Below, in pieces: positions 16,601 through 45,380 of a DNA stretch of 64,000 bases. The notes beneath the pieces were generated by a model. The model worked only from the letters and a program-made list of their open reading frames with translations. It had not been told where the DNA came from and did not search any database. Origin of the DNA: Undaria pinnatifida (Eukaryota > Sar > Phaeophyceae > Laminariales > Alariaceae); assembly GCA_012845835.1 (NCBI GenBank), contig JABAKD010000016.1:16013625-16077624 (forward strand). The letters run 5' to 3'. The position numbers and the translations under genes were made by a program. Every line of letters starts with the position of its first letter. Positions within the stretch are counted from its first letter, which is position 1.

Positions 16601-16734
16601 CGGGCCAGTGGTGACGCCACGGCCTCCAGCCTGATCAGCTGGACGCTATTCCCGTAATTTTACGAAAGAATCGCGCCTCTCGTCAAGCAGAAACAGCTCA
16701 GAGCCCCTGCTCTTTCGGGCGCAGTTAGAGCAGT

Positions 16735-17340
16735 CTTCTTGCGATTATATGCCAATGAGTGAAAAGGTCACGACGCGAGAAACCGTGGGTTCGGACCCGC
16801 GTTGTGCTCCCGAGGCCTGGTGTTCCTGAAGGGGACACCACAGACTCAAAGAGCCGAGGACTGGTGTTCCCAGAGGGGGACGTTGCAGACCCAAATGCCC
16901 AACAAGGCTACCGGCGGGTTGGCACCGTCGGTGTCGGGGCTCTTTTTTGGGTGCAGTGAGGGCGGCTTCTTACGATTTTCCGCCAGCGTGTGAGGAGGAC
17001 CCGATGCGAACAACCGCGGGTCAGGACTCGCATCATGCTCCTGAGGCCTGGTGTTCCCGCAAGGGGACACTACAGGCCCAAAGAGCCGAGGACTGGTGTT
17101 CCCAGAATGGGACATTGCTGACCCAAATGTCCAACGAGGCTACCGACGGGTTGGCACCGTCGGTTTTTGATATGTTTCGGGCGCAGTCAGAGCGGATTCT
17201 CGCCTTTTTCTGCCAACGAGCGAAGAAGACTCGAGGCAAGAAACCACGGGTTCGGATTCGCGTCGTGCTCCCGAGGCTTGGTGTTCCCGGACGGGGACAT
17301 TGCAGGCCCAAATTCCAACACGGTTTTTGACCCTTCTCTC
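16735..17340 (+). repeat. Internal tandem repeat in the old Gypsy element
   Basis: A unit of roughly 220-240 bases occurs about 2.5 times. Each unit holds 'gtgctcc.gaggc.tggtgttcc', 'ggggacattgcag.cccaaa', 'caacgaggctaccgacgggttggcaccgtcg' and 'tttttctgccaacg'. The young element has the equivalent linker in shorter form just before its NADAR domain, so the linker has expanded or contracted between copies. Confidence 0.7.
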
Positions 17341-17850
17341 GAACGCTCCACAGACAAAGTGGTGCTATTCTGGTAGCCCTCATCCTATTTTCGACCGTGG
17401 CCCCCTTCGTCGTTTTTGCCGTGGACGACGTGCCATATTCTTGCGCGGAGCAGTACATGATGGCCGAAAAGACCAGGCTTTTCCAAGACCATCGAGCAGT
17501 GGAGCTCATCATGACGTCGCCTAGTCCTAGCACACGCAAACGCATCGGTCGAGGCGTGCGCAACTTTGACTCCGGTGTTGGGGACAGGAAGAAGCAAAAC
17601 GCCGTGTTATCTGGCACCTGCGCCAAATTCACGGAGAATCCAGTCATAAAAAAATACCTTTTGAGCTCTGATAACAAACTTCTGGCTGTATCCAGCCCTC
17701 TAGACCCAGTGTGGGGCATTGATCTCCGGGCGGATGATCCCAGGGCTAACAACCCATGCCAGGGAAGAGGAAAAACTTGCGTGGTGAGGCCCTTTCTGCT
17801 GTTCGCGAAGGTATTCGCGACAGTGAGACCGGGTCGGCGCATCCGGCATC
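17340..17850 (+). other. NADAR-like segment of the old Gypsy element
   Basis: Shows the same block as in the young copy: FVVDDV-type strand, SCAEQ-type motif with MMAEK, SPSTRKRIGRGVRNF-like stretch, NAVLSG, and PLDPVWGIDLRADD. Part of a fossil copy. Its presence here shows that the domain was in the common ancestor of both elements. Confidence 0.8.
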
Positions 17851-20800
17851 CCCTAGTCGGTTCTGCACCTGCACTGCGAATGCAAGAACCAAGAAATCTC
17901 GTCCACGCCGCGGCCGGGCCGTTAAAAGCGGCCAGCGCTCGCAAAGCTTCCCCATCGGCGTTTCCGACGTATTTCTCGGGCGCGGTGGCCGAGTAAAAGC
18001 CGTGAAGTTTTAGAGATAGCTTCCGGCGTCGGTCCTGACCTTGCGCTGTCAGAACACGGCCCCTGTTTCGTCGGGGGTACTGTGACGCTGGACGACGTTT
18101 CGCTCACTATGAAAATCACGTACGTCAGTCGAGCAACGCTCGACACGGAGAGGCACTAGACTCCTCTAGATTTGGGGACCGGCAGCATTATTTGGGATCC
18201 TAAACGCCTCCGAGGGTACTGTGGGCAACAGAGTTCCGCATATCCTCCGGCCACAAGACACAAGAGAGCATTGGCAAAGCGGGGACCCTCAATGCACGAG
18301 TCCAGCGGTAGCTTGAGTTCGTGACCGCGTTCGATTGCACACTCGAGTACCGCAGCCAACGGCATCGCCGATTGTTCTGGCCCGCTTGCCAGAGCCTGCT
18401 ACGGAGTACGACTGCAGTGGCTTCACAAACTTCAATCCCGTGGGGTTGACAAGCCCCAACCCCGTTGGAGATAGCGGTATCTATCTCCTACGGACCGGCG
18501 GACTGCGCGCTCCCTCCTCGCCGATCCCAGGGGTCGGTTTGGGTGGACTCGCGCCCCTCGCCGGAAGCACTGTCTTGGGTGGGCTCTTGCCCCGCACTGA
18601 ACATGCTGCCTGTGGGCTCCCTCTCACCTCTACCGCATTTCGCGATTTACACACACACGAGCCACGTGTAAGGATTGACCGCCTTTCTGCTTCCCCGGGG
18701 AGATTCGTCGCTCGTGTTTCTGCCTCCGTCGCCACTACCGAAGGCTGGGCCGGTCGCGGGTTGATTTCGCCTGCCCCTGACACCGTTTTCGCTTCGTTTT
18801 TTGCCATACCCATCGAGGGCGGCACGGGCTCCGCAGAAGCCCTGGCTGCGGCGACGCCCGTCGCACAGCCGACTTATCTATCAAGGAGTTCTACACAGGA
18901 AACGGCCCCCGCCGCGACCACCGGTTCGACTGTGTCCGTCTCCGCCTTGCTTGGCACTCCAGCCCCTCCGTCGTCGAAGACGCGCTGACGAACAGCAATA
19001 GCAACGGGTATTGCACCCCCGCTGTAAATGATAGATTCGGGCCCGGCGGGGCCCCTCGGCCATCTTCCAGACGAGGTACAACCCCGCCGCGAGTCCCACG
19101 GCCGCGACCGGCTCCATCCGCCGCCGTGACCCCTGCTCTTGCCGACTCGCCGGTCCGCACGGTGCCACTACCGTCCGACCGCGACCACGCAGAGCCTATA
19201 TAGGAACTCCTCTCCTACGGCTCACGCCTTCTCCTGGTGACACGCCGACTGCGCATACAAGGTCGGACGCCCTCGGCGACGCTGCTGATATTACCGTTCG
19301 CTGATTCCGTCGTGCGTTATTCACATGCCGATTGGAAGCGAGGGCAGCACGCTGAGTCGACGTGCCACGCCATGATGCGCTACGTCTCTATCGGCCGGCC
19401 GTCAACCCTGCGGCCCAACTTTTTGGCGTGCTACCCCTCGCACAAGCGTCCCCCCCTCTCAGACATCCAGGAGCTGGCGGGTAAGGGTCGGCTACATACA
19501 ACCGACGACGACATCGTCCTACTCGTCCGTAACCCGACACTGCCGCCAACAAGGTCTGACAAACCCAACTCTGTGGGGCGCGCTGCTTGCTTGCTAAACG
19601 ACGAGCCAGTTCGCATCTACGTTCCCCTGTTCATGCGCCTTTGAATCATTCAAACTTGTCACTCGACGGCCTCTTGTCACCTTGGCACCACGCGCACGTT
19701 GCGGATGCTGGAGCGGTTTTATTGGTGTGTTGACATGAACGTGTGCACCCGGTGGTGGCTTCGCAACTGCTTGAAGTGCCAAGCGCGGAAAACCCCACGG
19801 CTGACTGTCCGCTGGCCCATCATCTCAATGCCTACCGGAAGGTCCAGGTGTCGCCGTCAGTGTTGACTACTTCGGTCCCCTTCCGGTTAAACCACAAGGC
19901 AACACCTACATCCTGATGTTCACCGATCGTTTCAGTCGTCGGGCCGATATGTTCCCCGTCGCTGCCGCTGAGTTCACCGTGGAGGGTACAGCCAATATCC
20001 TGGCATACTAATACATCCCCTTGTGGGGGTGTCCGCGCACCATACTCTCGGACAACGGACTGCAGTTCTGCTCCAAGCTCTCACAAGTTGTATATCAGCT
20101 GTTGGGTGTGCACAAGCTTGCTACAAGCTCCTATCATCCCAACTGTAACGGAGGCGTTGAGCGGGTAAACCACACCATGGCCCAAATGCTGGCTATGGTC
20201 GTCAACGAGCGACAAGACGATTGGGACTTGCATCTGCCCCACGTAGAATTCGGTTACTCGGCGACGGATATGGCGCCCATCGAGGTTTACATGGGCAGAC
20301 TCCCACGGCTCCACCTGACGGTTTTCGACTACACAGGTGTCGTGGGACACCAGAGTCTGGCCTGTGACCACCTGGCCTATTGCGACTTGGCCACTGACCG
20401 GCAAAAGCGCGCGAACGACATTGTCCGCGCACACCACGCCCTCACAGTCTCCCGTGTTAACCGCAGAAACTCCGCCCTCGCCGACGCGCTGCGTCCATCA
20501 CCTAACTTCGCTTCGGGTGGTTGGGCATGGGTGTACAAGTCTGCCTCTACCATCTGCCAGGGTGTGAAGGCGAACACCGACGCCAAGGTACTCAAGGCCA
20601 AACTCGTGCTTATCTGGACGGGCCCGTACAAGATCCTGGCAGTCGGTCCTTGCTCCGCCGCCGAGACCCCGGACGGTTCGCCGCACGGGAGCAACCTTCT
20701 CTATTTGGATCTCCCTTCCGACCTGCTCGGTTGGACGCTCGTCGGCGTGTGGCCATCGAGCGCTGCAAACCCTGCGCCAACCCCCACGACAGCGGGGACA

Positions 20801-22392
20801 TGCTCAAATACCTACCGGCGGGGCTGGCGCAGCACGTGCTCAACAAATTTTCCAAGAAGTCCCCGACGTACCACGTCACTCAAGACGACGTTTAGACTCC
20901 CCTCCAACCGCTGGAGGTGGAGCAGATCACCGGTCATCAGTCGGTACGGGGGCGAGGTGGCGTCATCGCGGTGCTATACAAGACGCATTGGGCGGGACTC
21001 TCCAAACCTTCCTGGAAGCGGGATATGAACCTCCACCTCTCCGCTTCCACATCTTGCGTTCTTGGGCCGGAACCCCGGACCAGCACCGCCAAACCAACCG
21101 CCTCTACCGCCGAATGCGGATCGGGGCGGCACAGCGCGAGCTCTCCCGTCTCCCGCAACAACGGGGAGCGTTTCCTAGCGCCGGGCTACGCCTGCGTTCC
21201 TCGCGCCGATTGGCTCCGTCGCTACCACGAAACAGTACTTCCTAAGGGAGCACACTTTTGGTACAAGGGAGACGATGGGTTGTGTTGGCTTGGAAAAATT
21301 AGCGCGAGCACTACCGAGGACAAGGTATACCTGGTTCGCTTTCTGGACAACCCGAGACCGATTAAACGTCCTCTTCCCCCGGCGCGCTACATGACTTCGA
21401 CGGGAGCCGTACGAGGCTCTTGGTGCCTGCAAGCTCACATCGCCAGTGCGTTTCCTCGGGGGATCCAACGTAACGTAGACGAATCTCGAGGCGAGGCCGT
21501 GGCCAGTTGACTTTCAAGCCGCCACCGCTCCTCGATAATTCTTCATTTTTCGGGGTTATGAGGTTTGAGTATTTGCCTTTGGGTTGTTCGTAGTGTCTTG
21601 AGAGTCTTCGTCGGATTTTGGGCCGGTTCTTTCCATTTTTTTTGTTTTTTTCGTCCTGCCGAGCCCCCTGCTCAGTGCCGGGCCAAGATTCGGGTGAAAC
21701 ACCGCTATCTGAATCACAGGGCTGTCGTTTTTTCGTCGTTGTTCAATTTCGCCCTGCCGACGCCCTCCTCAGCCCAGAGCCGGGGGGGGGGACCAGGGTA
21801 CCCTGTTCGCGCGTAACGGGTCTGTGTGTCATCTTTCATCTTTTGTGTGTTGTATTTTGTTCTACTTTGTTTTTTCGACTAAACACTTTCCCCCCTCGCG
21901 GGGCTGTAGATGTTGCCACCTTCCACCCCAGGTATTTGTCGTTCCCTCGTCTAACCCCCCGCCATGCCGATGGCCCGCAGTAGTTTTTTCGCATGACTTC
22001 TCCCTTGTGTTAGCGCCTGTGTTCCCCTCCATATCGACGAGGGCTCGCCTCGCCATAGTACCTTTTCTGTGATTGGTTTGCCGTAGAGCCTTTCCTGCCC
22101 CCCTCCCGCCACACCGGCGGTATGCGGCAGGTTCTAGAGCCTTTTCTGCCCCCCCCTCGCCACACCGGTGGCACGCGGCAGGTTTTTGGTGGGTGGCTTT
22201 TGCCTAGTTGTAGGGTCTCCGTTTCTTTCAACTGTTTTTCTTCGCGTGTTCCTGGCTCCATAGCCAAACCGTTAGAGGTGTGGGAGTGGGTTTTGAGGAG
22301 CCGCATCTTCGACTCATGGTCTAGTTCGTAGAACCGAAGTTTCTCTGAATCACCCATATTTCTGCATATGCGGCTCATCAGGGTGGGCTAGT

Positions 22393-22660
22393 GTTAAGAT
22401 ACGGCCTCGAAAGGCCTGTAATGATCCGAATTTGATATCGTTTGGGTGGGTTTCGTATGATAAGGTTGGCGTTTTATATTCGGGAAAGTTAGGAAATAGA
22501 TCGAAGGCGCGTGCCTTCGATTTCAGAAGCCATCCGGGGCTCTGGTGGAATCGAATAAAGCTACGTCTCTACGAAGGCAAGGAAAGTGAGTACTCTCCGA
22601 GGACCTGCTCAATTGGCAGACCTGCAGGGGGCGCTCTGTGTCCCCACCAATAATCTTACA
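22393..22660 (+). repeat. 3' LTR of the old Gypsy element (268 bp)
   Basis: Starts TGTTAAGATACGGCC right after the purine tract AGGGTGGG and ends TCTTACA. It contains a TATA-like TTTATATT, a perfect hairpin TCGAAGGC...GCCTTCGA (22,501-22,520) and AATAAA. It corresponds along its whole length to the LTRs at 30,396-30,664 and 44,782-45,050. Confidence 0.9.
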
Positions 22661-25467: not shown

Positions 25468-26208
25468 CTACAAGGTTCCCCTTCGGGAGGTGGACACGTG
25501 CCTCCCGGGGGCGACGCAAGTCGAATGACTACAACTGATGATGATGAAGTATTTATGCAGAAGGTGTATATCGGAGGGATGCGTAGTGGAAAGAATGTGG
25601 ATAATATATAGTAAGATATCACAGACATTATTTGGAGGAAGAGGGTTGGGATATTGCTGAGGCTCGGTGTGATAAGTTATTCGAAAGTCCACTCCGTATA
25701 ACTGCGTGGCAGCAACAAATTCTACGTTTGTAGCATATGCGTAAGGCTGTGACATGAAGTGGAGATACTCTTCAACACTCGAATATGTAGTAGGTTGAGA
25801 TCCAGCGACTTCCACAAGTTCTTGATTTGCTCCAGCTAAGATACTGTCGTGGAAAGTGTTGAAACCTGATCTTGGGATAACGGTGTACAAATTGGTTGTG
25901 ATGTGGGCAATAATATGTGCACGGACGATGTGATGTAAAGCTGGGTTGTTGTGCACACGACGCGAGATACATCTTAATAAACATGCACCATCACCAATCT
26001 CGGGAATAATGGACCATTGACCAGAACTGTTATTATTGTTGCCGCTGTTGTTGTCTTGATCATTTTCGCTGTCTGATGGGTTTGTACTGCTGTCGCTGCT
26101 GTTAGAGGAATCATTGGTGTCAATTTGTTGTGTGTTTTCTGTGTCCAGTATTTTTCCCCGCGCGCTTATACCGATGTTTGTTGCCGATATGGTCTGTTGT
26201 GTGCACAT
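25468..26208 (-). CDS. OTU-domain cysteine protease-like protein
   Basis: 246 residues. An Asn/Ser/Asp-rich N-terminus (about residues 25-65) is followed by an OTU-type catalytic block: EIGDGACLLRCISRRV carries the D-G-x-C nucleophile motif, then HHIVRAHIIAHI. A second block, SSVEEYLHFMSQPYAYATNV with EFVAATQLYGVDFRITY, matches the OTU 'Y...M......W.g..E..A.A' region. A late HLLHKYFIII could supply the catalytic His. OTU enzymes cleave ubiquitin chains, and OTU domains also occur in transposable elements. The C-terminal 20 residues look unrelated to the fold, so the true 3' end may differ by splicing. A partial duplicate lies just upstream. This could be a host gene or cargo of a mobile element. 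Confidence 0.65.
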   Translation of the reverse strand: MCTQQTISATNIGISARGKILDTENTQQIDTNDSSNSSDSSTNPSDSENDQDNNSGNNNNSSGQWSIIPEIGDGACLLRCISRRVHNNPALHHIVRAHIIAHITTNLYTVIPRSGFNTFHDSILAGANQELVEVAGSQPTTYSSVEEYLHFMSQPYAYATNVEFVAATQLYGVDFRITYHTEPQQYPNPLPPNNVCDILLYIIHILSTTHPSDIHLLHKYFIIISCSHSTCVAPGRHVSTSRRGTL

Positions 26209-26311
26209 CGTTACTTTTGCTTGAGTTGTGTTGCTACTTTATATCTCTTTATACAGGTTTCTCTACTGCTGTATGGTAACCACCGTGTCAATTGTGAGGG
26301 AGAACTCACAG
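25821..26311. repeat. Direct duplication of OTU 5' half, copy A (491 bp)
   Basis: Covers codons from the first Met through the first OTU block plus about 100 bases of upstream sequence, and pairs with 26,471-26,964. Few differences are visible, among them a three-base insertion in copy B within the coding part. About 160 unique bases separate the copies. Confidence 0.9.
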
Positions 26312-26417: not shown

Positions 26418-26861
26418 TCAGAAAAATATATTGTCTACACCGACAAATGATTCTTTATTATCTACATGACCTTGATTTGCTCCAGCTAAGATGCTGTCGT
26501 GGAAAGTGTTGAAACCTGATCCTGGGATAACGGCGGTGTACAAATTGGTTGTGATGTGGGCAATAATATGTGCACGGACGATGTGATGTAAAGCTGGGTT
26601 GTTGTGCACACGACGCGAGATACATCTTAATAAACATGCACCATCACCAATCTCGGGAATAATGGACCATTGACCAGAATTGTTATTATTGTTGCCGCTG
26701 TTGTTGTCTTGATCATTTTCGCTGTCTGATGGGTTTATACTGCTGTCGCTGCTGTTAGAGGAATCATTGGTGTCAATTTGTTGTGTGTTTTCTGTGTCCA
26801 GTATTTTTCCCCGCGTGCTTATACCGATGTTTGTTGCCGATATGGTCTGTTGTGTGCACAT
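26418..26861 (-). pseudogene. Partial duplicate of the OTU gene (N-terminal half)
   Basis: 147 codons open. The first about 130 match the neighbouring OTU protein almost exactly, including EIGDGACLLRCISRRV, then the frame runs into unrelated sequence and stops. It lacks the second OTU block and so cannot form the whole domain. It carries the same upstream sequence as the complete gene and could still be transcribed. Duplication appears recent because silent and replacement differences are both rare. Confidence 0.75.
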
Positions 26862-26964
26862 CGTTACTTATGCTTGGGTTGTGTTGCTACTTTATATCTC
26901 TTTATACAGGTTTCGCTACTGCTGTATGGTAACCACCGTGTCAATTGTGAGGGAGAACTCACAG
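26471..26964. repeat. Direct duplication of OTU 5' half, copy B (494 bp)
   Basis: Copy of 25,821-26,311 in the same orientation. Its right end at GGGAGAACTCACAG is followed by unique sequence. Confidence 0.9.
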
Positions 26965-30395: not shown

Positions 30396-30664
30396 TGTGA
30401 AATTAATAGGTGGGGACACAGAGTGCCCCCTGCAGGTCTGCCAATTGAGCAGGTCTTCGGAGAGTACTCACTTTCGTTCCTTCGTAGAGATGTAGCTTTA
30501 TTCGTTTCCACCAGAGCCCGGGATAGCTTCTGAGATCGGAGGCGCGTGCCTCCGATCTAATTCCTAATTTCCCCGAATATAAACCGCCAACCTTATCATA
30601 CGAAACCCATCCAAATGATCTCAAATTCGGATACCTACAGGCCTTTCGAGGCCGTATCTTAACA
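30396..30664 (-). repeat. 3' LTR of the young Gypsy element
   Basis: Minus-strand sequence runs TGTTAAGATACGGCC ... TTTCACA. Contains TTTATATT (TATA-like), a perfect palindromic hairpin AGATCGGAGGC...GCCTCCGATCT (30,533-30,558), then AATAAA. The adjoining purine tract reads AGGGTGGG on the minus strand. Confidence 0.95.
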
Positions 30665-31520
30665 CTAGCCCACCCTGATGAGTCGCATATGCAGAAATAT
30701 GGGAGATTCGGGGAAACTCCGGTTCTACGAACTAGACCATGAGTCGAAGATGCGGCTCCTCAAACCCCACTCCCACACCTCTAACCGTCTGGCTATGGAG
30801 CCAGGAACACGCGAAGAAAAGCAGTAGAAAGAAAAGCAGACCCTACAGCAAGGCAATAGTCACCCATCAAAAACTTGCCGCATGCCGCCGGCGTGGCGGG
30901 GGGGCAGAAAAGGCTCTAGAACCTGCCGCATGCCGCCGGTGTGGCGGGGGGGGGGCAGGAAAGGCTCTACGGTAAACCAACCACAGAAAAGGTACTATGG
31001 CGAGGCGAGCCCTCGTCGATATGGAGGGGAACACAGGCGCTAACACAAGGGAGAAGTCATGCGAAAAACCTCCCGCGGGCCATCGGCAAGGCGGGGGGTT
31101 AGACGAGGAAACGACGAATACCCGGGATGGAAGATGTCAACACCTACAGCCCCGCTAGGGGAGGAAGTGTTTAGACAAAAAAAAACAGAACAAATACAAC
31201 ACACAAAACATAAAAGATGACACACAGACCCGTACACTGGTCGCCCCCCGGCTCTGGGCTGAGGAGGGCGTCGGCAGGGCGAATTCAAACAATGACAAAA
31301 AGGCGACAGCCCTGCGCCTCAGATAGCGGCGTTTTACCCGAACCCTGACCCGGCACTGAGCAGGGGGTTCGGCTGGACAGAAAAGAGAAAAAAAATGGAA
31401 AGAACCGCTCCAAACCTCGATGAAGACCCTCAGGACACTACGAACGACCCAAAGACAAAGACGCAAAACTCATACCTCAAAAAATTGAAGAACTATCGAG
31501 AAGCGGTGGTGGCTTGGAAG

Positions 31521-32108
31521 TCAACTGGCCACGGCCGCGCCTCGAGATTCGTCTACGTTACGTTGGATTCCCCGAGGAAACGCACTAGCGATGTGAACTT
31601 GCAAGCACCAAGAGCCTCGTACGGCTCCCGTTGAAGTCGTGTAGCGCGCCGGGGGAAGAGGGAGTTTAATCGGTCCCGGGTCGTCCAGAAAGCGGACCAG
31701 GTATACCTTGTCCTCGGTAGTGCTCGCGCTGATTTTTCCTAGCCACCATAAACCATCGTCTCCCTTGTACCAAAAGTGGGCTCCCTTAGGAAGTACGGTG
31801 TCGTGGTAGCGACGGAGCCAATCGGTGCGGGAAACACAGGCGTAGCCCGGCGCTAGGAAACGTTCCCCGTTGTTGCGGGAGAGCTCACGCTGTGCCGCCC
31901 CGATCCGCATTCGGCGGTAAAGGCGGTTGGTTTGGCGGTGCTGGTCCGGGGTTCCGGCCCAATAACGCAAGATGTGGGAGCGGGAGAGGTGAAGGTCCAT
32001 TTCCCGCTCCCAGGACGGTTCGGAGAGTCCCGCCCAATGCGTCTTGTATAGCACCGCGATGACGCCACCTCGCCCCCGTACCGACTGATGACCAGTGATC
32101 TGCTCCAC
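31521..32108 (-). other. Chromodomain-like and SH3/Tudor-like tail of the young Gypsy pol
   Basis: GGVIAVLYKTHWAGLSEPSW followed by ILRYW has the spacing of a chromodomain (strand, W, 'TWE' equivalent, then helix). Downstream, GAHFWYKGDDGLWWLGKI with YLVRFLDD resembles a small beta-barrel reader. Chromodomains at the end of integrase are the hallmark of chromoviruses and bias insertion toward marked chromatin. The second barrel is less usual. The same pair is recognisable in the old copy. Confidence 0.65.
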
Positions 32109-32129
32109 CTCCAGCCGTTGGAGGGGAGT

Positions 32130-35100
32130 CTAAACGTCGTCTTGAGTGACGTGGTACGGCGGGGACTTCTTGGAAAATTTGTTGAGCACATACTGTGTCA
32201 GCCCCGCCGGTAGGTATTTGGGCATGTCCCCGCTGTCGTGGGGGTTGGCACAGGGTTTGCAGCGCTCGATAGCCACACGCCGACGAGCGTCCGAACCAGG
32301 CAGGTCGGAAGGGAGATCCAAATAAAGGAGGTTGCTCCCGAGCGGCGAGCCGTCCGGGGTCTCGGCGGCGGAGCAGGGACCGACGGCCAGGACCTTGTAT
32401 GGGCCCGTCCAGTTAAGCGCGAGTTTGGCCTTGAGTACCTTGGCGTCGGTATTCGCTTTCACACCCTGGCGGATGGTAGAGGCAGAATTGTATACCCATG
32501 CCCAACCACCCACAGTGAAGTTAGGTGCTGGACGCAGCGCGTCGGCGAGGGCGGAGTTTCTGCGGTTAACACGGGAAACGGTGAGGGCGTGGTGTGCGCG
32601 GACAATGTCGTTCGCGCGCTTTTGCCGGTCGGTGGCCAAATCGCAATAGGCCAGGTGGTCACGGGCCAGACTCTGGTGTCCCACGACACCTTTGCGGTCG
32701 AAAATCGTCAGGGGGAGCCGTGGGAGTCTGCCCATGTGGACCTCGTTGGGCGCCAAACCCGTCGCCGCGCTGACAGAGTTGTTGTAAGCGAATTCGACGT
32801 GGGGCAGATGCGAGTCCCAGTCGTCTTGTCGCTCGTTGACGACCATAGCCAGCATTTGTGCCATAGTGTGATTTACCCGCTCAACGCCCCCGTTACAGTT
32901 GGGATGGTAGGAGCTTGTAGCAAGCTTGTGTACACCTAACAGCTGATGTACAGCTTGTGAAAGCTTGGAGCAGAACTGCAGTCCGTTGTCCGAGAGTATG
33001 GTGCGCGGGCACCCCCACAAGGGGATGTATTGGTTCACCAGGATATTGGCTGTACCTTCCGCGGTGAACTCAGCGGCAGTGACGGGGAACATGTCGGCCC
33101 GACGACTGAAGCGATCGGTGAACAGCAGGATGTAGGTGTTGCCTCGCGGTGTGGCCGGAAGGGGGCCGAAGTAGTCAACACTGACGGCGACACCTGGACC
33201 TTCCGGCAGAGGCATTGTGATGATGGGCCAGCGGACAGTCAGCCGTGGGGTTTTTCGCGCTTGGCACTTCAAGCAGTGGCGAAGCCACCACCGGGTACAC
33301 ACACTCATGCCAATCCATCAATAAAAACGCTCCAGCATGCGCAACGTGCGCGTGGTGCCAAGGTGGCAGGAGGCCGTCGAGTGGCAAGCTTGCATGATCC
33401 AAGGGCGCATGAGCAGGGGAACGTAGATGCGAACTGGCTCGTTGTTTAGCAAGCAAGCAGCTCGCCCCACAGAGTTCGGTTTGTCAGAGCTTGTTGGCGG
33501 GAGTGTCGGTTTACGGACGAGTAGGACAAAGTCGTCGTCGGTTGTATGTAGTCGACCCTTATCCGCCAGTTCCTGGATGTCTGAGAGAGAGGGACGCTTG
33601 GGCGAGGGGTAGCATGCCAAGAAGTCCGGTGGCAGGGCCGACGGCCGGCCGATAGAGATGTAACGTATCGTGGCGTGGCACGTCGGCTCTGCGTGTTGTT
33701 CGCGCTTCCAATCGGCATGTGAATAACGCGCGACGGAATCCGCGAATCGCAACTCAGCAGCGTCGCCGAGGGCATCCGACCTTGTAAGTGTAGCCGGCGT
33801 TTCACCAGGAGGAGGCGTAAGCCGTAGGAGCGGAGTTCCCATAGGCTCTGCGTGGTCGTGGTCGGACGGAAGTGGTACCGTGCGGGCCGGCGGGTCGGCA
33901 AGAGTAGGGGTCGCGGCGACTGACGGAGCCGGCCGCGGCCGTCGGGCTCGCGGCGGAGTTGTAACTCGTCTGGGCGATGACTGGGGAACCCCGCCGGGCC
34001 CGAAGCCATAGTCGACAGCAGGGGGTGCCTTACCAGCTGCTGTTGCTGAACGCCGGCGCGTCCGAGTGGAGATGCGGTCCGAAAAGGGCGTCATCGTCTG
34101 GGGCGCCGGAGATCCAGGCGAGGTTGGGACCGACGCGGTCGGGCCCATGGGCTCGACGGGGTTTGTCCCTTGTACCGAACTCCGGGAAGGAGTCGGTTGG
34201 GCCACCGATGTCGTGACAGCCGGGGCTTCGGCGGAGTCCTCGTTGGTCACGATGGGTACAGCAAAAACCGAAGCGAAATTGTAGTCGGCTGTACGCGAGC
34301 CCCCGCCTCGGCCGGGCGAGCTATCGACGGTGGCGGTGGATGCAGAAACACGAGCGACGAATCTCCTGGAAGGAGTAGGAAGGTCGTCAAGCCTCATACG
34401 TGGCCCGTGTGTGCGAAAATCGCAAAAGTCGGCGAGAGTGAGAGGAAGCCCACCCAAGGCATTACTTTCGGTGCGGGGCATTAGCCCACCCAAGCCGACA
34501 CCCGGTATCGGAGAAGAAGGAGTGTACAGCCCGCAAGCCCGTATAAGGTATATACCACCATCCTCAACAGGGGTAAGGCTCGTCGAACCATTGCGGTCGT
34601 GTTCCGTGGCAGGCTCCGGCAAGCGAGACAGGAAGTCAGCGTTGCCGTTTGCGCTTCCTTTTCGGTATTCGAGGGTGTAATCGAATGCGGTGAGGAAGTC
34701 GAGCCATCTCTGGACTCGGCCGTTGTGATTCCCCACTTTACCTATGTTTTCCAGAGCCTTGTGGTCTGAGAATATTCGGAACTTGGTGCCCCAAAGGTAG
34801 CCGCGGAGGCGCTTGAGAGCCCAGACGATGCTGCCAGCTTCCAAATCGAGAGGAGTCCAATGCCTTTCCGAGTCGAGCGTAGCTCGACTGATGTATGCGA
34901 TGGGTTTTATGGAGCCGTCCGTCTGCTCCTGTTCGAGAGCGGCTCCGAACCCGTCGATGCAGGCATCGCAGTACACGTGGAACGGGCGAGTGCCGTCGGC
35001 GACGGCGTCCCAATCAGGGAAAACGAGGACCGGCGGGGTCGTGAGCTCCGCCAAGATTTCTCTCACCAACTTCTCCATATCAGGCGTGAAGACAAACTTT

Positions 35101-38100
35101 ACCCCCTTCCGAAGGAGTGCGTTAATAGGACGAAGTCTCTTCGATAAGTCGGGCAAAAATTTGCGGTAATAGTTGATACCACCCATGAGTGCGCGCACCT
35201 GCTTAACGTCAGTGGGCATCGGCATATTGGTCAATGCCGACACTTTTTCCGAATTTGGGCGTAGGCCTGCTGGAGAAATGGAGTGGCCTAGAAAGTTCGC
35301 ATCGGTAGCGCCCAAACGCGCCTTCGAGGGGGAAAGCTTGAGATTGTGCTTTCGAAGGCGTTCGAAGAGAGAGCGAATCGTCCGAACATGCGTTACCGGG
35401 TCGGAGTCGAACACGATGACGTCGTCGAGGTAAGCTGCCACCTGTGTCAAACCTTTGATCACCTCATTGATAACCTTGACGAACCACCCAGGCGAGGCGC
35501 TGCTGCCCTGGGGCATAACGAGCCATTCATAAAGGCCCGTGGGTGTGCAGAACGCTGTAAGGGGAACTGTGTCCTTGTGTGCCGTTATCTGGTGGAACGA
35601 GGAAACCAAGTCGAACAGGGAAAACACCCGACCTGAGCCCAAGGAGTCCAGGACCTGGTCCACGCGCGGAATCGGCAGTTGACTGAGCTTGCTAATTTGG
35701 TTGAGTTTCTTGTAGTTCACCGTGATCCTCACACCGCCAGATTTCTTCGGGATGACCACCAGCGGGCTCGAGTACGGTGAGGTCGAGTGCTGAATCAGCC
35801 CAGCCGCGAGGTACTGGTTAAGGGTCGCGTCCACTTCTCTGGCCAGTATAGGGTTTATGCGATGGGGCCGTGAAGTGACCGGAGCGCTGCCCTCCGGAAC
35901 CGAGATTTCAAAGGGCATTAGGGAGCATGACCCAAAATCCGTCTTCGAGGTGGAGAACACGTCAGAAAAGTCGCAGAGCACATCCCCCAGTTGCTCAATG
36001 GTCGGGGGGTCCCAACCAGGGTCGTGTAAGTCGAACGCAATCTCCCGCAGGTGCGGTGGGAGTCGGGCCCAGACGCGTAGAAATGCAGAACGTTGGACCG
36101 GGTTCAAACGTTCCATAAGCGTCGGCGAGGGCGACGGTACGGCGGGAACTATCTCCTCCGCGCCGGTCGGGCTCGCGACCGCAGAGACCTGGCTGTCCGA
36201 AGTCTGGCCAGGGTGGGGACCCGCAGCCTTGATAGGGTGTTGTAAGGCACCCAGCGGGATGCGCAAAAGTGGGGCGTCGGCGACCCCGATAAGGTCGCCT
36301 GGCTCGAGGTCCGCGACACCTATGACGGGAAGCACCTGTCGTCCTGAAGCAACAAAGTGTTTCTGTCCCGAAAGAACATCCGGCTGCGGCAGTATGTCGA
36401 CAAGATAGTGTCCTGTGAGCGCAGGAGAGCCGTTACTGCGCACCAAGTTGACCTCGAGCAGTTGGGGCTCGTCCGACAAAGAGACGCCTGTAGAGCCATC
36501 ATAGCGAAGGTGGAAAGCACCGTTCGATGCTGCGGGGTCGACGGCATAAGCCGCTACGCCTGCTGTGGCGTGGTGGGACAACGTCAGCTCGCCCAAAACC
36601 CGATTATCGAGAGGACGAGGGGGCAGGGCGCGGTATGAACGGGTGTTGAAGCGCATCCAACTGTCGCGGCCCAGCAAGACAGCGTGCTGCATGACCGAAG
36701 GAGGGACCACGCATGCCCACACCGCGAGAGAGCATGTTGGTTCTTTTTCGAGGAAGAATTGAACGCTCAGACGGATGTGGGTCGCGGTCCGTAAAGGGGC
36801 GGATTCGCCAAAGCCACCCCAGGAGCGAGGGCTGCTAGGCCGCTCGCACGTCGATGAGGCGGCGCCTACCGATAGCATACGATCCAACACGTCACGACGG
36901 ATGAAGGTTTGGGGGGAGCCAGTGTCAAGCAGCGCTGTACATATGTAGGGCGCAATAGCGCCCCCTCCGCTATGTATTGCAATATCGGTAGTGAAAGAAT
37001 CGTCGTCCAGCGTCACGGTACCCCCAACGAGGCAGGGGCCATGTTCTGGCAGTGCGCGGTCTGAGGCGCCGCGAGAAGCTACCGCCAAAACCTCCGGGCT
37101 TTGATCGGCGGGTGTACCCGAAAAATAGGCCGAAGGAGGGCCTTGGGCAGCGCCGACCGCGGTCCCCAAACGCGACTGCTGAGCGGACGAAATTTCATGG
37201 ATTCCAGCATTCCCGGTGGGCCTGCGGAATCGACGAGGGGAGGCCGGGTGTGGCGATCCGTCCTCGCAGTCGCGAATTGCTTCGCGAACGGCAGAGAGTG
37301 CCTCACCGAGCAAATTTTTTCCTCTCCACTTGTGTGGATCCTTGGCGTGGGGGTCGTCCGCCCGGAGACCTATACCCCACACAGTGTCTAGAGGACTGGC
37401 CTCTGCCAGAAATTTGTTGCCAGTGCTCAAAAGGTGATTTTTCATGGCTGGGTTCTGCGTAAATTTGGCATAGTTGCCAGATAACACGGCGTTTTGCTTC
37501 TCCCTGTCCCAAACGGCGGCGTCAAAATTGCGCACGCCTCGACCGACGCGTTTGTGTGTGCTGGGGTCAGACGATGACATGATGAGCTCCACTGCGCGAT
37601 GGTCTTTAAAAAGCCGAGCCTTTTCAGCCATCATAAACTGCTCCGCGCAAGAATATGAGACGTCGTCGACGACAAACGACGAAGGAGACCACTGCGAGAA
37701 AAAGGACGGCGGCTGCCAGAACAACACTACTTTGTCTGTAGAGTATTCGAGGGAAGGGTCAAAAGTCGACGGTGCCAACCCGTCGGAGGCCGTGTTAGGC
37801 ATATGAGCTTGTAATGTCCCCGTCTGGGGACACCAGTCTCTGGCACTTTGGGCCTGCAGCGTCCCCGTCTGAGGACGCCCGGCCTCGGGAGCACGACGCG
37901 AGCCCGAACCCACGGGTGGTCGCGTCGTGGCCTTGTCGCTCTTTGGCGTAAAATCGCAAGGAACTGCTCTCACTGCACCCGAAGGGACAGGGGGCTCGGA
38001 GCTGTTACTGCTTGACGAGAGGCGCGATTCTTCCGTATCTTCACGGGAATAGCGTCCAGCTGATCGGGCTGGAGGCCGTGGCGTCACCACTGGCCCGTTG

Positions 38101-38879
38101 CGCAGTGTCGGATCTATATCCTGTGCCACTGGGGCAGACGTAGCCTGATGCACGTGGGTTAGCGTGCTTAAAGACGGAGCAGGGCCCGTAGACCCTGTGG
38201 GCGTCTTCGAGAGCGGGGCTCGGGCACGTGGAAATAAATTCTTCGCCCGAGAGGGCTCCTTCCCGTTAGCCCTCTTGGAGGAGAGAGACGAGGTAGCTAA
38301 GCTTGTCGGCTCCTCCTTGATGGGAAAAAGGATAGAGCGCCCGCTACTATCGCGAGGAGACACCGACTCAAATCTTGGAAAAGATCTCGGTGCATATGGG
38401 TTGGCTTTCCCACACCTCAAGCCAACCGCCGCTTTACGGTCAGAAAGAAGCGGAGACGAACCCGTTCGCGTATGGAGGCGACGCGTCGTCGCCGCAGTTG
38501 TCTTGCTGCGCGACGCGTGCCTGAGGGGAGCGTGCAAGGTGCAGGCTCCTGAGTCATGGTTAAGGGGGGCAGCGTTAGGGGCGCGTGCCTCCGTTGTCGA
38601 GCTTGAGCCACGGCAGGGGTTAACGGCGTTGGAAGCACTGGTCCCCATTGCCGAACTCGGACCATGATCGAGGGGGGCGTTACTGTGGGCGCGCACCCCC
38701 TTCGTAGAAAATGTAGCCTGGCTGGGGGGGGGCATACTGGGAGCCCTGGTCCCCACCGCCGGCACTGCGCCGTGAAAGTCATCAGGCGACGTAGGAGCCC
38801 TTGGGCTCTTGACAGAAGTAATTTGTGCCGCGCCACGTGTAAGGCGAACGACAGGCACACGAGCATCTTGTGAAATCAA
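32130..38879 (-). other. pol region of the young Gypsy element
   Basis: In order: Ser/Pro/Arg-rich linker (residues 1-380), NADAR (about 383-535), aspartic protease with LLDTGSPQTF (about residue 650), reverse transcriptase (about 1000-1190, with YLDD near 1150), RNase H (about 1300-1420, opening HVYCDACIDG), a long linker, an H2C2-type zinc-binding region, and integrase with SVDYFGPL, SDNGLQF and GGVERVN supplying the D,D,E residues. The reverse transcriptase motif LPIPRVDQVLDSLGSG is typical Ty3/Gypsy. Treated as a recent element with about two interruptions in pol overall. Confidence 0.9.
37275..37733 (-). other. NADAR (YbiA-like) domain within Gypsy pol
   Basis: About 150 residues: VVLFWQPPSFFSQWSPSSF, VVDDVSYSCAEQFMMAEKA, SSSDPSTHKRVGRGVRNFD, AVWDREKQNAVLSGNYAKF, LLSTGNKFLAEASP, VWGIGL, then GKNLLGEALSAVRE. 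Comparison from memory with E. coli YbiA matches the aromatic start, the (S/A)E-(H/Q) motif with its glutamate, the 'QAQK/MAEK' helix, GR, W..K, KF.Q, LL.T, the WG.G turn and the closing GKN.LG..L..(V/L)R. In NADAR enzymes the conserved Glu and the WG..GKN region line the NAD/ADP-ribose-like pocket, and all are kept here. The domain sits between the gag stop and the protease, where no standard Gypsy domain is expected. Confidence 0.88.
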
Positions 38880-38942
38880 AGGAAGTGTCCCCGACAGTGC
38901 CGTCGGCGTACGGGTCGGGTGTGCCGTACCGCCGTCGCCCTG

Positions 38943-41894
38943 TCAGTTGCCAGTGCGAAAGGTACCTGGTTGGCGCGCGTTGGGGTTTCCGCTCGGATTG
39001 TGGGTTGCCCCGAAACGTTTCCCCGGAGCAGACACGGAAGCCGAGGAGGCTGGTGAGGGCGGGACAGAACCTTGTTGGCCAGGCGTGTATGTGCTGTTGT
39101 TGTTACCGCTGTGGCTGTTTGTCTGTCCCTGGTCCCGTGGGTACCCTCGTGATTGGTTTGAACGATTTCGGCGATTTTTGTTGTACGTTTGCGAGCGAGA
39201 AGAGCGTCCGTCGCGGCGGTAGCTAACCATACGTGCTTGCCACCGTCGGAAAACGTCATCATCGCCAAGTTGGCCAAGTTCAGGGTTTAGACAGCCGCTG
39301 GCGTTGATAAAGGGATGCCTACAGTTGCGTAAGGAATGAGTGTCTTCGTGACAGTTGAGGCAATGACCCCTGTTTTCTCGGAGAGCCGCGGCGCGGGCAG
39401 AGGGCGTGAGGAGGCCGCTCCAGAGGGGAGGGTCGTCGGTCTTAAACGAGGCACTAACAGCGAAAACTTCTGCATAGTGTTGTTCTTCTAGGGGCCAGCA
39501 GTTGGACATTTTGTCGAGCCAGGGGTCGGTGGAAGCAACAATCGGCATGACAATCGGATTATGGCTCGAACCCGTCTGCCAAGAAGGCGACTGAGACAGC
39601 ACTCGGCCCTGGCCGCGCCCATGAACGGCGGGCCGGGGCCCCGACGGGGCGGATGACCGCGATCCCGTCGAAGAAACAGGTAGAGTAAAATTTTTTTCGC
39701 CGTTGACGGCAGGTGTCTTATTATGCGCCAAGTCACTGAACGCTTTCCACATGGCATCTAACGAGGCGTATGGCCGTGGGTCCGTAGCCTTCGAGCCAGG
39801 GTATAACGTAGGCATGAGCGTCGGAAACTGCTCGTTGACCGCCATCCTAACCACCTCCAGCACGACATCCGTCCCCGGGGACAAAACACGCTCACTCCCC
39901 GTGACTGCCGATACTAGCACACGGAACTCCCGACTGAAATCAGAAAAAGGCGTGCCGTTACACAATCCAAAAGTATGCAACTTAGTGTAGCCTTCGCCCG
40001 TGTCGACCCGGTCAAAGTGTGTCACGAGCAGGCGTAGCAGGAGGGTGAGAGCCTCGGGCCCAGATGCTCCTCCGTCCAACGCTCTTGACACCTGTCCAAA
40101 AAAACCGTCGATCAAGGTGGTCATGCGAGCGGTCGTGGGCCTGTCAGGTGTTATGGCACGGTTGAATGCCAGGCGGAGGGGGTGGATCCAACCGGGAACC
40201 CACGTGGGGGCACGTACACCCTCTTGGCAACGGTCGTCACAGCGCATGAGTATGTCAGTCATGGCAGACCGAACCGAACGTGTGAGTTGCTGGGTGCCGT
40301 CAGACTTGTTCAAAGAGGCGGGGAACGGTAGCACAGAAATGCGTGATACGTCCTTGTGGGAGAGCTTAACATAGGCGCGCCTAACCGAGTCATCGAGCGT
40401 GGATTTAGCTAGAGCCGCGGCGGTAGCAAGTTCGGCGGTACGCTCGCGAGCCAAATCCGAAGAAACAGGCTTGGTGTGGTCACCCGACACAGTAAGTTTG
40501 CTCAGCCGGTCGGCGGACGAGGCAATATCCACCAGAGAAGGAGTTACTTGCCTCCTGCCAGCTACCACGGTCACCTCGCCGTGGTCCGTGTTGGAGCTCG
40601 AAGACGAGCGGGAGGACGTTGACGACCCGTCCCACGCTGAGGGCCCTCGTGTGCTGTTTCGCCGTCCTCCGGTGCCTCCTCCCGAGCTGCGACCGCCGCC
40701 CCGGTTGGTTCGGGCCTGGTTGCTTCCTTGGCGGCGCTGTGGGCCACCACCAGTACCCGACGCTCCTCCCGCGCTTCCACCACCGTTGCCACCACCGCGA
40801 CGGTTGTGGTGGCCACCACTCCCATCGTTTTCCCCGTTTCCCCCACTCTGGCCGCCACCACCCCCGGAGTTGCCACCTCCACGGTTGCGGTCCCCCCGAT
40901 CACGGCTGCCACCGCGCCGCTGTTTGGTGGAGCGCCTTCCTTCCAGCGCTTCCTTTGGAGTCGGCCACAGGACTGGGTCAGGGGCGTCGTCGTGGGCCAA
41001 TCTTAAGGCTTTGACCAAAGCGAGGGTAGGTGCTCGCCTCATCTGCCCGAAGGCGGACGAGTTGTCCCGGCGAGCCCAGACTGCTCCGACCGAAAGGTCT
41101 TCCGCCTTGAACGACGACCGTCGCTCTGAAGTTAGAAGGGCCTTGGCCGCTGCTATCACTGCCTCCGCCAGATGCGCCGAGAACTCGACCCTCGGCGTGG
41201 TAGCCATGTATTGGACGCTGCCAGACATGAAAACGTCGTCCCCGGGTCGTGTATCTTGGGAGGCAACACTCAGCGGGCGCGCCGAGGAAGGAGCAGCTCT
41301 CGCCGGAGTCGATGTAGCTGAGAGGGCAACGGCTTGGCGTGCCCTTTCGACCGCACGGGATGCCTCACGAGCAGCGGCTCTCGCCTGGTCGATGGCGTGA
41401 TCCTCACGGCGTCGACGTTCGTCGTCTAACCGTTTGCGTTCCTCTCGTCGAAGCAGGGTCGCGTTGGCTTCGTCGAGAGCTCTTTGGGCCCGAGAAATTT
41501 CAGACTCTGAGTCTGAGGGGCCAGCATGGGAGCGCTGGTCTCCGTAGCTCTGGGGAAGGCGCTCTGTCGAGCGCGGAGAGGTCTGATGTCGACGGTGGTG
41601 CTCTGAGGACAGCTGGAGATGCTCCCTCGAGGCTGGGGATATTTGTCGTCGTGATGTCTCCGCACCCGGTAGGAGTTTTTCCGCCTCGTCGACCGGCGAG
41701 TCGGGGTGGTCGGACCGTGTGCCGTGTTGTTGACTGGTGTTGGAGTCACTATCGTCGTCCAGGTTTTCGGCGCGTCCACCTCGTCTCGATTCGCGGGACC
41801 TCGAGCGTTCCCGTCCTTCTCCCTGGGCCTCCTGGATGGGGCGCGCGGAGGACCGCATCCTGCCCGAGTAGCCCCCATCGTCGCTGGTGGACAT
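38943..41894 (-). other. gag of the young Gypsy element (983 codons, open)
   Basis: Begins MSTSDDGGYSGRMRSSARP, with an Arg/Ser/Glu-rich N-terminus, a predicted coiled region (RAQRALDEANATLLRREERK), a Gly/Arg-rich low-complexity stretch, a capsid-like middle, and a CCHC zinc knuckle CLNCHEDTHSLRNC near the C-terminus. Larger than ordinary Ty3/Gypsy gag. Only 63 bases separate it from the first pol Met, in a different frame, so pol expression probably uses a recoding or separate-initiation mechanism known for the family. Remnants of the same protein open the old copy. Confidence 0.85.
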
Positions 41895-44623
41895 GGTGCC
41901 TAGGAGCAGTGAAGGGGGGGGGGATACGAACGACGCGTGAAGAAGCTATGGAGACAGATAAATTGTTGTGGTGTTCCTGCTCCAAGGGGCGGTATATCTG
42001 TGTTTCAGCAAACAGCAACAATATGGGCCTTAAAGCCGTCCAGCCTTAGTGATGGTAGCAGCCACGTCAACTAGCCGTATAAGAGGAGTACAGCAGTAAC
42101 AAGGTACCAATCATCATAACCGCAACATAAGAGCAGCGCCCAGTCTGACCGTAGGGTATATGGGTAACGCCCGCACGACCCGCAGCACAAGGAGCCAAAA
42201 CTGGGCAGCACTGACCCCAACCGCAGTGCAGGGGGTGCAACACAGTAAGGGTACGTCTGCAGCCATCGCACTTAAACAGGCATCATTCGACCTAGGCTGG
42301 GGGAGGTAGCACAGGAGAGCGTCGCCCAAAACGCCCACGCTCATCGGACCAAAACAGGCAGCATTTACCCTAGGTGTAGTGTAGGGGTGGAAGCACAGTG
42401 TAAGATCGCCCAACACGCCGTCGCTCATCGCACCAAAACAGGCAGCATTTACCCTAGGTGTAGTGTAGGGGTGGAGCACAGTGTAAGATCGCCCAACACG
42501 CTGACACTCAGCGCACCAAAACGGGCAGCATTTACCCTAGGTGTAGTGTAGGGGTGGAAGCACAGTGAAAGGTCACCCAACACGCTGACACTCGTCGCAC
42601 CAAAACAGGCAGCATTTACCCTAGGTGTAGTGTAGGGGTGGAAGCACAGTGAAAGATCGCCCAACACGCTGACACTCATCGCACCAAAACGGGCAGTATA
42701 ACCCCCCCAACGAAGTAGTTTCCCCCGACCGCACTAAAGGGGGACGGTCGCGCCTGCAGTAGTGCTGATTGCTGCAGTATCACTGCTGTGTTCACAGGTA
42801 ACGGTAATTTCAACCGCACCAAGATGGGTAGTGTAGTACCAACACCAGCTGTAGAAAAATGTGCACGCCCACAGTCAAATAGAAAGGCTGTTTGCCCCCA
42901 AAGGTACCGCATTAAACGGGCTGTTCTCCACTGCACTAGTAAAAACTGTGAAGCGCAGTATCTCCGCGAACTGTGTAGTAAGCGCTCTGTAACGGGCAGT
43001 AGCTGTCCGAACATGTGCAGAGAAGAAGAAAAAAAAAATTCCAGCGTAGACCCTAGCAATATCGTGAAGGGCAGCACATGTACGGGCAGGAAGACGGCCT
43101 AACGCCCGTACAGCTGAAAAAAAAAATCCGTACCCGCTCCCACCGATAAAGGGACAGTTACGTTGACAGCAGTGCGGAGTGCCGCACGGTCACAGCTGTG
43201 CATACACAGAAAGTGGTATTATAGTCCCCGCGTACCCATGAATGGGAGAATATAGGGCATCGCACATACCAACAGCCTTGCCCAAACAGCCAGCACAGAG
43301 TTTCAGCGTTCACTAGGTTCAAGTTCTAGTCACGGAGGGGCCAGGACGAAAAAAAAACTCTCGAATCGAACTTGCAAGGAGCACTCGCACAGCAGTGGGG
43401 GGTGTCAGAGCTGCGGTGCTGTAACTGTGGACGCTGGGGCAGTGAAGGGTCGAGCTATGTGGTGTATGAGCAGGAGCAAAGTAGGCGGCTTGGCTGCTGT
43501 ACAGTGACTTCTACAGCAGAGAATCCGGCGGTATATGGCAGGCATTGACAGCGAGCCCATTGTGCTGCACTGTAGTTGGCACCTCTGCAAAAATGATGGT
43601 GGTTGAAGCTACGCGACGGACAGCAGTAGTGGAACGCTGTTGATCGAGAAAGATCGGAGAGGGGTCCGAGGTGCCAAATTCGTAGCTGGTACTAATTTCG
43701 GCAGAAAGGGGGCACAAGGGCAGCTGCTTGTTCGACGCACAAGAATGATCGACGTACGTACTGAAACCCATACGATAACGCGTGTACTGGAAAATTTGCC
43801 AAACGAAAAAGCCCAAACATTCCACGAGCACCGCCTGTTTCTTCCCAGGTAGATCACAAAGAAGGAGCCCCGACATGAGCTCCTAGAGCACGGTGCCCGT
43901 AGTCCAAGGGGTCCCGCGAAGGACGGTCTGGCACCGACAGCAAGGATGTGCTGGGCGATGGGCTCTCTCAGCGAGCGAAGTCCCCTTCGAATGTCATTCG
44001 AAGGGTTGATTCCAGTATGCTTGTGGCATGTCGTGCATATGCCTCCGAGCCCCAAAGCGCGAAAAAAAAAGTACGAGTCGATGGCCGATCTTGGGGCTTG
44101 TGCTGGCAACTCGCGGATATGTGCTGTGCAACATGCTGGCAGAGCGCGGAGCAAACAAGTCTGATGGGTGGGGCTCGGGCAGTTCCACTGCGGAGTGGTC
44201 TATGACCAGCTGGCGGTGAACTGATGCGGCCAAAGGCCGGGACGAGGGGTGTGCTCCGAAGAGCAGTGTCGTCCGCCTGTACTCGGAAAGTGTCCTCTGT
44301 GTGGTGCGTGCCCAGCAACCAACAGGAGGGACCAAAATTCGAGACGAGGAGTGTGCTCCGCAGAGCAGAGTCGTACGCACGTACTTGGAAGGTGTCGTCC
44401 GTGTGGTACGTGCGCGGCGACCAACAGGAGGGGCCCCCGCCATCTCACTGCTGTTGTGGTCGCCGTTGTAGGAGGAAGGGCGCTCCCTCCATTGAGAAGC
44501 CACCCGAGAAGGAACAGGGGTTGTGGGCTCGATGGAAAGCAAAAGCAAAATCGCTACGAAAAAAAAATCGGAGAAACCGGAAGAACGCTGCCACAATAGC
44601 ACATCAAGCTCGACGACGCCACT
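41895..44623 (-). other. Long leader of the young Gypsy element
   Basis: About 2.7 kb between the 5' end repeats and gag. No protein is recognised. It contains the 84-bp tandem repeat (42,270-42,700), a perfect 10-bp hairpin CCCTTCGAAT / ATTCGAAGGG (43,983-44,005), and a roughly 100-base unit present twice at about 44,235-44,430 ('gtgtgctccg.agagcag..tcgt', 'accaacaggaggg'). Confidence 0.7.
42270..42705. repeat. About 84-bp tandem repeat in the Gypsy leader, four full units plus partials
   Basis: Units contain CAGGCAGCATTTACCCTAGG, TGTAGTGTAGGGGTGGAAGC, 'acagtgaaagatcgcccaacacgctgacactcatcgcacc'. Full units start near 42,350, 42,433, 42,516 and 42,599, with degenerate edges on both sides. 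The period is close to 28 codons and is open on the minus strand (HPYTTPRVNAACFGAMSV per unit), though no long frame crosses the whole array. Confidence 0.9.
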
Positions 44624-44762
44624 TGTGAAGTTAATAGGTGGGGACACAGAGTGCCCCCTGCAGGTCTGCCAATTGAGCAGGTCTTCGGAGAGTACTCACT
44701 TTCGTTCCTTCGTAGAGATGTAGCTTTATTCGTTTCCACCAGAGCCCGGGATAGCTTCTGAG
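44624..44762 (-). repeat. Partial LTR (R-U5-like) next to the 5' LTR
   Basis: 139 bases matching the downstream half of the LTR, from CTCAGAAGCTATCCC just after the hairpin to the CTTCACA end. They are followed, like the full LTR, by AGTGGCGTCGTCG. One base difference from the full LTR was seen. Nineteen bases containing a second primer-binding site separate it from the complete LTR. Confidence 0.9.
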
Positions 44763-44781
44763 TCCTGCCGACGACGCCACT
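44763..44781 (-). other. Primer-binding site of the young Gypsy element
   Basis: Minus-strand TGGCGTCGTCGGCAGGA begins two bases after the LTR end. It has the obligatory TGG complementary to a tRNA CCA end. The same TGGCGTCGTCG occurs after the partial LTR at 44,624, and a related TGGCAACGTCG occurs in the miniature element at 13,358. The tRNA was not identified. Confidence 0.7.
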
Positions 44782-45050
44782 TGTGAAATTAATAGGTGGG
44801 GACACAGAGTGCCCCCTGCAGGTCTGCCAATTGAGCAGGTCTTCGGAGAGTACTCACTTTCGTTCCTTCGTAGAGATGTAGCTTTATTCGTTTCCACCAG
44901 AGCCCGGGATAGCTTCTGAGATCGGAGGCGCGTGCCTCCGATCTAATTCCTAATTTCCCCGAATATAAACCGCCAACCTTATCATACGAAACCCATCCAA
45001 ATGATCTCAAATTCGGATACCTACAGGCCTTTCGAGGCCGTATCTTAACA
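44782..45050 (-). repeat. 5' LTR of the young Gypsy element
   Basis: 269 bases, no difference found from the 3' LTR. The adjoining flank begins CATG (45,051-45,054), matching CATG at 30,392-30,395 on the other side. Hairpin copy at 44,919-44,944. Confidence 0.95.

Positions 45051-45120: not shown

Positions 45121-45380
<260 letters not shown>

Follow-up and report, generated by a model that had tools for sequence, protein, structure and literature searches.

The window analysed here, a 64,000-nucleotide stretch of the Undaria pinnatifida genome (contig JABAKD010000016.1), contains a 14,655-bp Ty3/Gypsy element (30396..45050) on its minus strand, as do all features of this element given below, delimited by a pair of long terminal repeats (LTRs) and a flanking 4-bp direct repeat. 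The 5' LTR (44782..45050), which starts with TGTTAAGATA and ends with TAATTTCACA, and the 3' LTR (30396..30664) are each 269 bp long and do not differ from one another, indicating that the insertion is recent. The LTR termini are TG...CA, and CATG on both sides of the element is a 4-bp target-site duplication of the kind made by Ty3/Gypsy elements. A likely primer-binding site (44755..44781), in which two bases precede TGG, could pair with the 3' CCA end of a tRNA. At 44611-44920 a tandem duplication of 158 bp (99% match) takes in the primer-binding region together with the LTR end next to it, which leaves the window copy with one and a half LTR ends at the 5' side. There are also 84-bp tandem repeats (4.7 copies, 42300-42696) in the leader between the 5' LTR and gag, and a TTA microsatellite of 83 units (45125-45373) adjoins the 5' end of the element.

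The gag ORF (38943..41945) encodes 1000 amino acids and reached no Pfam family. A TGA (38943..38945), a likely read-through site, stands between it and the pol ORF (33318..38942; 1874 amino acids from stop to stop) in a single frame. The pol ORF encodes in succession a NADAR domain, a protease, a reverse transcriptase (RVT_1, 35277..35753, amino acids 1064-1222; Pfam E 1.5e-26) and an RNase H (RT_RNaseH, 34683..34991, amino acids 1318-1420; Pfam E 2.3e-30). The protease was recognised in the translation by the sequence ALLDTGS at amino acid 670 (36915..36935), which we take to be the aspartic protease motif; hmmscan of the pol ORF gave no Pfam protease match. The pol ORF ends at an in-frame TGA (33318-33320) that is absent from the 2473-amino-acid frames of other copies. 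In the window copy this stop and another at 32130-32132 bound the next piece of pol (32130..33317), which contains the integrase core (Pfam rve at amino acids 40-139, E 2.2e-8), and the last piece (31521..32129) encodes 202 amino acids for which neither a Pfam nor an NCBIfam family was reached. The order ALLDTGS, RVT_1, RT_RNaseH, rve is the pol order of Ty3/Gypsy elements (Metaviridae), and the whole 2473-amino-acid frame is open in 9 of the 150 matches listed elsewhere in the genome. We interpret it as a Ty3/Gypsy element of autonomous type, belonging to a brown-algal lineage in which Pol starts with a single, unextended NADAR domain of the YbiA type.

An initial annotation made from the letters of the window had proposed that a NADAR domain lies between gag and the protease of a Ty3/Gypsy polyprotein, and its family, motifs and placement are all borne out. 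In hmmscan the pol ORF matches PF08719 (NADAR) over profile positions 2-163 of 163 (E 4e-50), scoring 170.7 bits where the cut-off is 35.1, and the best NCBIfam match of the domain is the YbiA-type model TIGR02464 (153.2 bits against a cut-off of 73.7). The motifs SCAEQ (37638-37652), WGIGL (37365-37379) and GKNLLG (within 37305-37328) are present, with the gag TGA upstream and ALLDTGS downstream. The limits of the domain need a slight adjustment: Pfam places it at 37272..37721, amino acids 408-557 counted from the gag stop, instead of about 383-535. Its relatives by sequence in the PDB are 8BAU (E 6.8e-15) and YbiA itself (2B3W, E 1.1e-4), and it belongs to the PF08719 superfamily with the YbiA-like alpha+beta fold. 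A search of the 511-Mb genome (68 contigs) yielded at least 150 NADAR matches, a lower bound because 150 of 1454 first-look candidates were scored, and every scored match was above the Pfam cut-off; these matches and the E-values exclude a chance match. In this genome the domain is found in the reverse-transcriptase frame of two diverged element families, A and B, the window element being a member of family A. The domain is complete, with the fold of ADP-ribose-binding NADARs and with its catalytic pocket kept.

The residues E43, K50 and E125 are described as mechanistically relevant in NADAR proteins, and R79, W89, R93, W133, D130, K75, Y84 and D86 as contact residues (PMC11543638). In a sequence alignment to its PDB relatives, the window NADAR retains E43, K50, R79, W89, E125, D130 and W133, with substitutions of Lys for R93 and, as judged by eye, Phe for Y84 and Ala for D86; neither of the outcomes that the initial annotation had named as contrary to NADAR, a lack of significant Pfam match or a lost pocket when aligned to YbiA structures, was observed. 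Counting the window copy, E43, R79, W89, D130 and W133 are each kept in all 29 family-A copies, K50 and E125 in 28 of the 29, and each of the seven residues in 12 of 12 family-B copies. Across 80 bacterial loci, E43, K50, W89, E125, D130 and W133 are present in all 80 and R79 in 77. Read by eye, D86 is replaced by Ala in family A and by Gln in family B, and Y84 by Phe. Since D86 in 8BAU holds the adenine-side ribose, its replacement would suit a NADAR fold with a binding or structural role in the Gag-Pol particle, such as binding ADP-ribose or nucleic acid, with enzymatic activity incidental, as would the fact that the pol sequence adjoining the domain is under weak constraint over a long stretch (pN/pS 0.76); however, the two families, which differ at 52% of NADAR residues, both retain all seven catalytic or phosphate/ribose contacts, and we consider such a role distinctly unlikely.

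The YbiA subfamily is reported to be marked by Glu at position 125, where other NADARs have Asp or His (PMC11543638, PMC11125620), and the Glu found there in 28/29 family-A and 12/12 family-B copies predicts that they belong to that subfamily. The NADAR antitoxins linked to DarT1 belong to the same family and have the pocket Glu and Lys in common with the window NADAR, but they are described as having Asp in place of E125 and adjoin a DarT1 toxin gene, whereas the window NADAR has Glu and a search of the host genome for DarT gave 0 candidates. The evidence supports a NADAR that is predicted to be a competent hydrolase of the YbiA subfamily and is part of Pol.

NADAR domains in the same arrangement have been reported in Gypsy elements of Ectocarpus (Gypsy-12_Ec32 and its kin; PMC12477816, Genome Biol. 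2025), the one such report that was found in the full-text literature. The arrangement itself is thus already published for Ectocarpus, and the novelty that the initial annotation had implied for a NADAR-bearing Gypsy lineage in brown algae is not supported. Kinship to the Ectocarpus lineage was tested through one Ectocarpus polyprotein of the protein database, P0121, which is identical to family A at 61% of NADAR, 74% of reverse transcriptase and 75% of RNase H residues. The window element differs from that lineage in coming from another, larger genome (511 Mb) with two families. Its last pol piece matched no chromodomain family in Pfam or NCBIfam; for Gypsy-12_Ec32 a C-terminal chromodomain following the integrase is described (PMC12477816). 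The present analysis adds the fold and pocket, the maintenance of the domain, the two diverged families within one genome, and an unrelated Gypsy with the same arrangement; these additions make a functional reading more testable and are not new in kind. The unrelated Gypsy is P0122, a polyprotein of 1415 amino acids from an ENA metagenome contig, which has NADAR directly before the protease, followed by reverse transcriptase, RNase H and integrase in one frame. Its reverse transcriptase is 36% identical to that of the window element, compared with 74-80% within the brown-algal set, and its NADAR takes a different position in the tree, one that no starred branch supports. NADAR is likewise described as built into the replication polyproteins of positive-strand RNA viruses of animals (PMC9503650) and into ORF1 of Tx1 LINEs of Crassostrea gigas (PMC12477816); these too are parasites that copy RNA, but are unrelated replicons.

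Stand-alone relatives include 8BAU, the NADAR of Phytophthora nicotianae, which has a fold extension, is 31% identical to the window NADAR over 160 residues, and has D86 and R93 where family A does not. YbiA of Escherichia coli (2B3W, TIGR02464) is also a stand-alone enzyme, with a described role in clearing riboflavin intermediates. A metabolic damage-control enzyme of this type, acting on reactive riboflavin intermediates and carried without any link to copying, would account for TIGR02464 being the best NCBIfam match, but would gain nothing from fixation inside Pol and would not lead one to expect the same NADAR site in two families of one lineage and in P0122; we regard it as improbable. 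Two proteins that look stand-alone, P0118 of Ectocarpus fasciculatus (227 amino acids, with a Cys/His-rich N-terminus) and P0065 of EukProt (209 amino acids), are sisters to the Gypsy domains; they were judged to be host genes by length alone, and either may be a truncated element read as a gene. With P0118 as query, the best 150 of 1658 candidates in the window genome were only element copies or undecided pieces, and one piece singled out for its identity, C36:830804, proved to be a decayed family-A element. A host NADAR gene with introns, or outside the best 150 of the 1658 candidates, is possible. Among viral contigs, family-A NADAR has relatives at 7 viral loci (46-50% identity), none nested near family A in the tree, and tblastn with family-B NADAR and P0122 confirmed no viral relative.

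Family B (L043, L044, L046-L055; longest open frame 2371 amino acids) has the same domain order as family A. The two families are 48% identical in NADAR, 55% in the protease region, 80% in reverse transcriptase and 75% in RNase H, and a diverged family-B copy, L138, is 90% identical to family B in NADAR and 94% from reverse transcriptase to RNase H; thus, the divergence between the A and B NADARs exceeds what the polymerase domains would lead one to expect. Either replacement of the domain or fast change on the B branch would explain the excess. In a tree of 95 rows chosen from 371 extracted NADAR domains, a starred set (97/87) unites family A with P0121 and related proteins from ENA metagenomes, and a second one (99/93) also takes in P0118 and P0065. 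Both fall within a larger set of 45 rows (99/94), in which each of the 14 bacterial rows that bear a name belongs to Myxococcota or Planctomycetota. Family B forms a starred set with three ENA proteins (100/99) on the opposite side of the tree, a starred branch (99/94) separating A from B, and the path length from A to B is 1.79, compared with 0.96 from A to the Ectocarpus element. The tree agrees with the bacterial origin proposed in PMC12477816 and narrows the source. It also adds a stand-alone NADAR of a brown alga, which may have served as go-between or may itself derive from an element.

Constraining the NADARs of A, B and Ectocarpus together was not rejected (p-AU 0.132, or 0.186 with the two stand-alone proteins). 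The tree of reverse transcriptase plus RNase H joins A with B at only 83/82, and its other two orders were not rejected either (p-AU 0.175 and 0.15). There is therefore no proven conflict between the two trees, and a separate origin of the family-B NADAR is suggested rather than demonstrated. A broader scheme, in which brown-algal Gypsy elements take up and exchange NADARs at one fixed site in Pol, family A having drawn on a pool comprising the Ectocarpus stand-alone protein, Myxococcota and Planctomycetota, family B having had its domain replaced from another source, and the unrelated P0122 having done likewise, is doubtful. If it were true, such repeated capture would imply a defence not yet known, in which eukaryotic hosts attach ADP-ribose to the nucleic acid of retroelements, and that the elements carry the eraser.

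Selection on the domain was examined in 28 family-A and 12 family-B copies, 40 in total, namely the first 43 rows of the ranking by NADAR score minus the window copy and two rows with stops. The ratio pN/pS was calculated by the Nei-Gojobori method with pairs pooled and a bootstrap over codons. In family A it is 0.33 (0.16-0.72) for NADAR, 0.35 (0.22-0.63) for reverse transcriptase and 0.30 (0.11-1.29) for RNase H, pN in the latter two being raised by frame slips in a few copies; for the protease it is 0.95 (0.47-2.18) and for the N-terminal 400 amino acids of pol 0.76 (0.51-1.15). The 12 family-B copies give 0.42 (0.16-1.27) for NADAR and 0.26 (0.13-0.64) for reverse transcriptase, and in both families the pairs share history. 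The ranking by NADAR score selects copies whose NADAR has changed little in amino acids, and so lowers pN in that domain. When the NADARs of A and B are compared with each other, pN is 0.38 and pS, at 0.75, is saturated, a contrast that fits long-term constraint, partly outside the element if the domains had separate sources. Judging by these sequence comparisons, the NADAR domain looks functional and maintained. Many genome copies are decayed, and several of the 150 scored matches contain stops, as might be the case if NADAR had been picked up a single time by chance and simply had yet to disappear; yet its pN/pS in this sample is as low as that of reverse transcriptase and it is present in Ectocarpus elements as well as in families A and B, which makes a passenger highly improbable. 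The window itself contains a second element of this lineage, now decayed, which the initial annotation of the NADAR domain does not mention (13761..22660, plus strand; several pieces, 67-85% nucleotide identity to the first element). Its NADAR (17421..17774, plus strand; Pfam E 1.1e-27, profile positions 32-148) has, by eye from the translation, Gly for W89 and Val for E125, losses that are expected without selection.

Of the 28 family-A copies retrieved, 20 have the gag TGA directly upstream of pol (as AAC TGA CAG), and so do 8 of 12 family-B copies (as AAC TGA AGA), the nearest upstream in-frame stop of the remaining copies being another one. The codon before the TGA is AAC, and gag ends in RTGN or RTN, with RTDN in one family-A copy. 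A TGA kept in this way across families that differ in 20% of reverse transcriptase residues fits stop-codon read-through. Pol would be made by occasional read-through of this codon, and NADAR would enter the particle with the protease, reverse transcriptase and integrase. Should a host ADP-ribosyltransferase place ADP-ribose on guanine of the element's RNA or single-stranded cDNA, NADAR could hydrolyse the N-glycosidic bond of the guanine-linked ADP-ribose within the particle, such that copying would not be blocked. Removal of ADP-ribose from guanine of element RNA or cDNA by the predicted NADAR hydrolase is the most likely function, with a probability of roughly 0.4; the proposal of the initial annotation that the element may erase ADP-ribose from its RNA or cDNA is consistent with the sequence evidence. 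Hydrolysis of guanine-linked ADP-ribose is reported for NADARs from several contexts (PMC11543638, PMC11125620). Bacteria are known to fight mobile elements by ADP-ribosylating DNA or RNA; the literature examined has no algal case. Several observations count against ADP-ribose erasure: DarT-linked NADARs are reported to have Asp where the window NADAR has Glu, and those from other contexts to rescue DarT1 toxicity poorly; the adenine-side ribose contact D86 is not kept and Y84 is Phe; the copies compared for pN/pS came from the top of the NADAR-score ranking, and the family-B interval for NADAR extends to 1.27; and the search of the host genome for PARP gave a single exon-sized match (33.6 bits), so that with no DarT candidate either, a defence that ADP-ribosylates nucleic acid is not known in this host.

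A further point against it is that small molecules may be the substrates of many NADARs (PMC9503650). The domain might instead be active on small or terminal substrates, such as NAD-capped RNA, ADP-ribose derivatives that arise when RNA ends are repaired, or ADP-ribose that serves a host defence as a soluble signal. Soluble derivatives and by-products of RNA repair have been proposed as targets of many viral NADARs (PMC9503650), and RNA processing as the role of the domain in Ectocarpus elements (PMC12477816); the NADAR activities that we found published, however, are on guanine-linked ADP-ribose and riboflavin intermediates, not on caps, and this alternative is possible but less probable than not by a wide measure. 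A retrotransposon lineage whose Pol retains a NADAR with an intact pocket points to an ADP-ribose chemistry of importance for the copying of stramenopile retroelements, and it offers a definite enzyme and a definite host in which to seek that chemistry.

The remainder of the window contains two near-perfect local duplications (22813-23967 with 24032-25186, 99.4%; 25821-26311 with 26471-26964, 97.8%). On the plus strand, an ORF at 52117-53808 has a weak DEAD helicase match below the cut-off and an ORF at 56051-57130 has a Helicase_C match above it; the ORFs in this region (52117-57130) are perhaps one helicase gene or element.
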